A stretch of DNA of 50,624 nt, taken from assembly GCA_029553545.1 (NCBI GenBank), contig JAKPKU010000192.1, positions 1-50,624 on the forward strand, written 5' to 3'. The notes under the pieces are model-generated. The model was not told where the DNA came from, did not search any database, and saw only the letters and a list, made by a program, of their open reading frames with translations. This DNA is from Candidatus Cloacimonadota bacterium (lineage in GTDB: Bacteria > Cloacimonadota > Cloacimonadia > Cloacimonadales > WRIO01). Below are positions 43,984 to 45,034 of this stretch, in pieces. A program made the translations under genes and the position numbers. Position 1 is the stretch's first letter. Each line of letters begins with the position of its first letter.

Positions 43984-44736
43984 ATGGTCTTAGAAGCAGA
44001 TATTTTAAAAGTATTTCTTTATACAGGTGCAGCGCTTAGCACAGGTATTGCGTCTCTTAGCGCAGGTTTTGGCGAAGGATATGCCGCAGCACATACAGCA
44101 CGCTCAATCATGAGACAACCAAATGCAAGTAGTGTGCTCACACGAACAATGCTCATCAGCCAGGCAGTAGTTGAATCAGGTGCTATTTTTGCTTTAGTTA
44201 TCTCTATGCTTTTACTCTTTGGTGGTTTTACTCAAGGTGGTGCTGATTGGGCAAAAGCCTTTAGTTTACTCGGCGCAGGGCTTGCAATAGGGCTTGGTTG
44301 CACAGGACCAAACTTTGGCTCAGGTTATTCTGCAGCAAGGGCAATAGAAGGTATTGGCAGAAATCCATCAAAAAGTGGTAGAATAACTGCTAATATGCTA
44401 ATAGGTCAAGCTATTACAGAGTCAGGAACAATCTTTGCTCTTGTCGTTTCACTATTATTATTGTATACCGTTCCAGCACAAATGTCTGAACCGTCTTTAG
44501 CTAAGATGATCATGAAGGCATGTGCATATATCACAGCAGGCATAGTTATTGGTATTGGTACTTTTGGACCAGGAACAGGTATCGGTTATGTTGCTGGAAA
44601 AGCGAACATTTCAATTTCAAAGCATTCAAAAGATCAGGGTGTTATTACACGAACAATGTTCTTGGGTGCAGCAGTCTCTGAATCAACCGCAATTTATGCA
44701 TTAGTAATATCATTTTTACTGATATTTGTATCATAA
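43984..44736 (+). CDS. atpE: Triple-hairpin F-type ATP synthase c subunit
   Basis: This 250-residue protein is three tandem c-type hairpins (about 1-80, 86-162 and 172-250), each homologous to the 87-residue c subunit next door. Each second helix keeps the ion-binding glutamate: QAVVESGAIFALV (E64), QAITESGTIFALV (E146) and AAVSESTAIYALV (E233). At the first-helix site that is Gln32 or Glu32 in Na+-type c rings, the residues differ: GFGEGYAA (E31), NFGSGYSA (S113) and GTGIGYVA (I200). A GGAGG site precedes the ATG. Multi-hairpin rotor subunits are known mostly from V/A-type and Acetobacterium-like enzymes, so this is unusual in an otherwise F-type operon. Confidence 0.93.
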   Translation: MVLEADILKVFLYTGAALSTGIASLSAGFGEGYAAAHTARSIMRQPNASSVLTRTMLISQAVVESGAIFALVISMLLLFGGFTQGGADWAKAFSLLGAGLAIGLGCTGPNFGSGYSAARAIEGIGRNPSKSGRITANMLIGQAITESGTIFALVVSLLLLYTVPAQMSEPSLAKMIMKACAYITAGIVIGIGTFGPGTGIGYVAGKANISISKHSKDQGVITRTMFLGAAVSESTAIYALVISFLLIFVS

Positions 44737-44770
44737 AATAAAAAAAGAAATCTAATAAACAGGAGGAAAA

Positions 44771-45034
44771 ATGGATCCTAACACAACTCAAATCTTAGCA
44801 AAAGGTATTGCACAAGGTGCTGCTTTTTTAGGAGCAGGTATTTGTATGGGTATTGGGGCACTCGGACCAGGTGTTGGTGAAGGCTATACCGCAGGTAAAG
44901 CATGCGAAGGTGTTGCACGCTCTCCTGAGCAAGCTGGTTTGATAACAAGAACGATGTTGATTGGCCAGGCAGTATCAGAGTCAACTGGTATTTATTCATT
45001 AGTTATTGCCCTATTGTTAATATTTACTACATAA
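44771..45034 (+). CDS. atpE: Single-hairpin F-type ATP synthase c subunit with two-carboxylate Na+ motif
   Basis: This 87-residue protein has two helices. Helix 1 has [13 protein letters not shown] with Glu37, and helix 2 has [21 protein letters not shown] with Glu70, Ser71 and Thr72. Glu at both positions plus the EST triplet is the two-carboxylate Na+-binding pattern described for Fusobacterium-type c rings; the EST form is also that of Ilyobacter-type Na+ rotors. An AGGAGG site and a 34-base gap separate it from the triple-hairpin gene. Confidence 0.94.

Follow-up and report, generated by a model that had tools for sequence, protein, structure and literature searches.

A triple-hairpin c subunit gene beside a single-hairpin c gene in an F-type ATP synthase operon of Cloacimonadota points to a probable mixed Na+ rotor

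How small a gradient can sustain a cell is decided by the ion/ATP ratio of its ATP synthase, and this ratio depends on how many ion sites the rotor ring has. A structure has been solved for one natural mixed F-type ring, that of Acetobacterium woodii. The hybrid rotor of A. woodii and Clostridium aceticum is composed of c1, a double hairpin, and the single-hairpin c2/c3 (PDB 4BEM; PMC7911925); by the chain counts of the PDB entry, nine c2 chains are joined by one c1. A lowered ion/ATP ratio by way of hairpins without a site is the published reading for both species (PMC7911925). Fused rotors of the V/A type are known as well: NtpK of E. hirae (2BL2), the triplicated c of Methanocaldococcus jannaschii and the 13-hairpin protein of Methanopyrus (PMC2359735). 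The Na+ site of a c-ring is common to two neighbours, one contributing E65 and Q/E32 and the other V63, S66 and Y70 (PMC2359735; PMC3692424; site residues are numbered here by I. tartaricus positions 32, 63, 65, 66, 67 and 70). In NtpK, Glu139 and Gln110 lie in hairpin 2 and Leu61, Thr64 and Tyr68 in hairpin 1 (PMC2359735), so that in a fused chain the site at the joint of hairpins k-1 and k takes its E32/E65 half from k and its V63/S66/T67/Y70 half from k-1.

We analysed a 50,624-nucleotide stretch of Cloacimonadota DNA (the window), which is one contig (C116) in a 2.88 Mb genome of 268 contigs and holds one complete F1Fo ATP synthase operon. Pfam and NCBIfam gave the order atpI-like genes, atpB, c(triple), c(single), atpF, atpH, atpA, atpG, atpD, atpC:

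42394-42675, + strand: AtpI/gene1-like gene (PF09527, slightly below the Pfam cut-off)
42672-43070, + strand: ATP-synt_I gene of the atpI region (PF03899)
43057..43974, + strand: atpB, subunit a, 305 aa (PF00119), with the Arg in SFRLFGN read from the sequence
43984..44736, + strand: triple-hairpin c subunit gene, 250 aa (ORF; three PF00137 stretches; site residues; AlphaFold2; fold match to 4bem_J)
44771..45034, + strand: single-hairpin c subunit gene, 87 aa (ORF; PF00137; closest solved single-hairpin c, F. nucleatum 3zk1)
45076..50344, + strand: atpF, atpH, atpA, atpG, atpD and atpC, the remainder of the F1Fo operon (Pfam and NCBIfam)

An earlier note on this DNA had described a 250-residue protein of three c hairpins carrying E64, E146 and E233, adjoining a normal 87-residue c gene in an otherwise ordinary F-type operon, and both descriptions are borne out. 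Each of the three hairpins, and the one hairpin of the single c, separately passed the curated cut-off of PF00137 (ATP-synt_C); the helix-2 glutamates are encoded by GAA, GAG and GAA, respectively; and Pfam and NCBIfam identified the remaining subunits of the operon as ordinary F-type a, b, delta, alpha, gamma, beta and epsilon. Structure prediction, which the note had proposed as a check, gave three pairs of long helices corresponding to three hairpins (AlphaFold2, pLDDT 87.3, pTM 0.84). Among solved folds this model came closest to the A. woodii c1 chain 4bem_J and next to V-type double-hairpin subunits; by sequence, too, A. woodii gave both window proteins their best PDB match. The two c genes lie 34 nt apart on the same strand, each with AGGAGG ~4 nt upstream of its ATG, and a promoter and terminator scan between them gave no signal above chance.

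The four hairpins of this gene pair, three in the triple and one in the single c, are the only ATP-synt_C hairpins that Pfam finds in the whole genome. A search for the ATP-synt_ab domain recovered F-type alpha/beta, FliI and Rho only, and thus neither a V-type ATPase nor a second F-type enzyme. With a single ATP synthase operon and no V-type enzyme, both c genes serve one enzyme. A V/A-type rotor is excluded by the F-type subunits of the operon and the lack of V/A-type catalytic subunits in the genome. If both proteins enter one ring, its composition of n triples plus m singles is plain arithmetic; the glycine motif of the single c, ALGPGVGEG, has Ala in place of the first Gly, and we read no ring size from it because ring size does not follow from sequence.

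The single c carries the full two-carboxylate Na+ motif, EVESTY (E37, V68, E70, S71, T72, Y75), as do the single c genes of 67 of the ~71 loci. These residues agree with E32, V63, E65, S66, T67 and Y70 of the F. nucleatum c11 ring (PDB 3ZK1; PMC3692424), which unlike an enzyme with two c genes is a homomeric ring of one gene product. In the triple the motif is divided. Hairpin 1 reads EVESGF (E31, E64), hairpin 2 SIESGF (S113, E146) and hairpin 3 IVESTY (I200, E233, S234, T235, Y238), so that the second carboxylate is present in hairpin 1 only and the Thr/Tyr ligands in hairpin 3 only. Lacking E32 and the Thr/Tyr partner, the inner sites would therefore bind Na+ poorly or take H+ instead. The V/A-type fused rotors also consist of concatenated hairpins with the Na+ site across two hairpins in the same order. 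They differ in enzyme type, the window enzyme being F-type, and in where the site lies: that of NtpK is at a joint inside the fused protein, whereas the inner joints of the window triple are degraded and the joints with its neighbours keep their ligands. A. woodii shares with the window the F-type operon, a fused c directly before the single c and the Na+ motif; it differs in having two hairpins rather than three and Q32 rather than E32, and the second hairpin of its c1 has no carboxylate, whereas the window triple has all three.

The earlier note had thought an F-type triple plus single unusual, had named an assembly error fusing tandem c genes as a possible refutation and had suggested a search for the same pair in related genomes. 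Among 84,980 species genomes, homologues of the triple turned up at 86% and 54-55% identity in other Cloacimonadota, with more distant ones in Planctomycetota and one Desulfobacteraceae genome. We then surveyed 125 Cloacimonadota genomes, read ~70 loci and sampled the two further phyla; the genomes are largely metagenome-assembled. A congener (L005) has the same gene pair with a triple 86% identical, and a triple followed by a single c occurs in ~65 other Cloacimonadota genomes, spanning 11 families and two classes. This conservation rules out an assembly error. The pair is thus real and it is not peculiar to this genome: in Cloacimonadota it is the rule outside one family (f2); the genomes sampled from f2 instead carry double-hairpin genes as long as V-type ones. 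At the sole such locus of this family that we read (L125), the 171-aa double-hairpin gene adjoins V-type subunits, judged by eye. Another genome of the family has an extra F-type operon (L112, 1458-8145) with the order beta, epsilon, two small membrane genes, a, c, b, alpha, gamma, which by eye looks like the N-ATPase type.

Beyond Cloacimonadota, multi-hairpin c genes were present in 18 of 246 planctomycete genomes and in 23 of 148 relatives of the Desulfobacteraceae genome, with 2, 3, 4 or 5 hairpins. Wherever a multi-hairpin gene and a single c share a contig, in all three bacterial groups, the former lies directly 5' of the latter; two apparent exceptions to this order, L046 and L174, are frame-split genes. 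In these the multi-hairpin c gene is read as two overlapping frames (L046, 617-1182; L174, 3391-4372), through either a true frameshift or a mistake in sequencing or assembly. Two Desulfobacterota loci (L172 and L183) have F-type c genes of five fused hairpins with a single c gene adjoining. Between the window and its congener, dN of the triple is ~0.10 with dS saturated (~2.3), and the single c has a dN of 0.03 and a dS of 1.3; the low dN of the triple against its saturated dS indicates purifying selection. We found no description of F-type c subunits with at least three hairpins, or of such genes in Planctomycetes or Desulfobacter, although subscription journals may hold one.

Across the 104 multi-hairpin genes, the site residues follow a usual pattern. 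Hairpin 1 keeps E32 and E65 and loses T67/Y70; in the last hairpin S66/T67/Y70 remain while residue 32, and often 65, is lost; and both halves are gone from the inner hairpins, as in the four-hairpin example EVESAF SVQTPF GVQTPF NVQSTY. A. woodii has the same half-site signature, with QVETSF QVQTTY in c1 and QVETTY in c2. We scored the halves on hairpins made non-redundant at 90%, assuming a single c on each flank. Of 58 hairpins with E32 and E65 intact, 57 followed a hairpin with T67/Y70 intact, compared with 32 of 199 in which E32/E65 was lost, in counts that treat related genes as independent. After clustering at 45% identity the contrast was 8/8 versus 2/20, and it was reached in none of 5000 shuffles of hairpin order. 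Inner joints alone, which need no assumption about the flanks, gave 6/7 versus 4/221 (Fisher 8e-9, kinship ignored). Pairing within one hairpin (6/58) or with the following hairpin (10/58) is ruled out by the same comparison, and E65 alone was a weaker pairing signal than E32. Against the rule, three planctomycete genes have lost both end halves (L158, L165 and L166; LIETPF SWQTGF ITQSPF).

In 44 genes the E32/E65 half of the first hairpin is gone, and 41 of them nevertheless keep the T/C67-Y70 half of the last hairpin; five of these 41 have no helix-2 carboxylate in any hairpin, and such proteins could therefore form no site on their own. A last half kept in a protein whose own first half is lost must pair with some other subunit in which E32/E65 is intact, most obviously the product of the adjoining single c gene. 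Three- or four-hairpin genes without a helix-2 carboxylate but with the last-hairpin Tyr kept were read at L159, L161, L157, L098 and L101.

We consider it likely, from these residue patterns and the gene layout, that the two genes encode a mixed rotor of one Na+-coupled F1Fo ATP synthase, in which a triple is inserted among singles. The window resembles the A. woodii kind in that an F-type operon holds both a multi-hairpin and a single-hairpin c gene, with site residues altered at the inner joints and kept at the ends, and the single c has the E32, E65, S66, T67 and Y70 of a two-carboxylate Na+ rotor. The single-hairpin c would make up most of the ring, each copy sharing a full Na+ site with its neighbour, and one or a few triples would be inserted among them. 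The first hairpin of the triple would offer E32/E65, and the Ser/Thr/Tyr of the preceding single c would complete that site; the last hairpin would in turn give its Ser/Thr/Tyr to the E32/E65 of the following single c. The internal joints would no longer make proper Na+ sites. In the window's genus, the three glutamates would keep the circle of carboxylates unbroken, with two sites lacking the other Na+ ligands, and the fused subunit of most relatives has between one and four hairpins without a carboxylate, which would mean fewer ions per turn. That both proteins enter one ring, a premise of the earlier note, is supported by the patterns across the 104 genes as independent evidence; co-assembly, Na+ as the coupling ion and a lowered ion/ATP ratio are what we infer.

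Three other readings were weighed. The cell might build two alternative homomeric rings, one of triples (e.g. 4 x 3) and one of singles, each for different conditions. In the window and many relatives this is feasible in terms of ligands, since the S-T-Y half of a last hairpin could complete the E32/E65 of the first hairpin of another triple, but it fails for the 41 genes that have lost the first half and kept the last, including the five without any carboxylate. Nor do the short gap, the common strand and the strong ribosome-binding sites of both genes hint at separate regulation, and we regard such rings as improbable. Slightly less credit still goes to a triple that works outside the rotor as an assembly factor, a regulatory factor or a decaying paralogue: some fused genes have indeed lost all carboxylates, and the PS3 enzyme fails with a Gln hairpin (PMC8809890), but the strong purifying selection, the conservation through 11 families and the retention of the specific end ligands speak against it, and the A. 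woodii homologue, alike in fold and layout, belongs to the ring. It is equally doubtful that the end pattern is a mere trace of ancestry without function, the last hairpin having been copied from, or gene-converted with, the single c; last hairpins and single c do lie near each other in the tree and odd residues are common to both within a genome (TCY in L124; TTY in L011 and L151/L189), yet copying alone would not drop residue 32, and often 65, while retaining 66/67/70, and genes in which an inner joint is restored, the five-hairpin gene among them, fit the pairing, as does the independently evolved A. woodii c1.

Returning to the mixed rotor, how ion-free hairpins would be passed is where known systems disagree. 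In the fused c10 of Bacillus PS3, a single E56Q hairpin abolishes ATP synthesis (PMC8809890), whereas A. woodii tolerates one Gln. The PS3 protein resembles the window triple as a concatenation of F-type c hairpins of which selected ones are altered, but it is engineered, H+-coupled and homomeric. Since one Gln hairpin is enough to stop ATP synthesis in PS3, rings with several consecutive silent hairpins are hard to explain, and the family offers a natural test of whether a rotary motor gets past an ion-free sector. Both the number of fused hairpins (2-5) and that of the carboxylates in them (0-3) differ among the relatives.

The earlier note had given every hairpin the essential glutamate. 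This is true of the window but is the exception in the family: a glutamate on helix 2 of every hairpin was found in 8 of the 104 genes (the window, its congener and six of family f13), and the other 96 have at least one hairpin without a helix-2 carboxylate. Elsewhere in Cloacimonadota the carboxylates per fused gene drop to two, one or none. The inner hairpins of most relatives have Gln. At hairpin 2 Gln is the rule, and on the tree of triples a Glu there requires three changes; regain is therefore the simplest account of E146, and the probable one. A broader reading, which we offer tentatively and hold to be somewhat less than an even bet, is that these genes define a natural class of F-type rotors in at least three phyla, with a fused ion-free sector bordered by half-sites that need a single c and turned over with fewer ions per turn than there are hairpins; the window's genus would have re-armed this sector with glutamates devoid of the Na+ ligands, so that one ring would have ion sites of two kinds.

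In a tree of hairpins, which are short (68 columns) and thus give it moderate strength, the c1 hairpins of A. woodii fall together with c2 of the same species (100/88), and a common origin of the window triple with c1 is accordingly unsupported. Most first hairpins of the three bacterial groups form one supported clade (99/95); the fast-evolving first hairpins of one Cloacimonadota group are placed elsewhere. The mixed arrangement thus probably arose at least twice, as far as such a tree can tell, and the window's family would be a set of probable mixed rings separate from, and wider than, that of A. woodii. The half-site rule may permit mixed rings to be recognised from sequence alone.

For Na+ coupling, the genome offers candidate Na+ pumps: contig C245 bears a full Rnf operon, the window bears an Nqr-like one, and a membrane pyrophosphatase is encoded as well. 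A study of Antarctic Cloacimonadota inferred Rnf together with a Na+-dependent F-type synthase, and the passages of it available to us make no mention of a fused c (PMC8542988). No nqrA scored above the cut-off anywhere in the genome, with weak partial matches confined to RnfC. The genome also encodes a FliI-type export ATPase (L195, 998-2311, - strand). The Nqr-like operon of the window (24248-28130, - strand) comprises B/RnfD-like, C, D, E and F genes with no nqrA adjoining; its B subunit is short, at 311 aa, and the operon is possibly an Nqr/Rnf intermediate.
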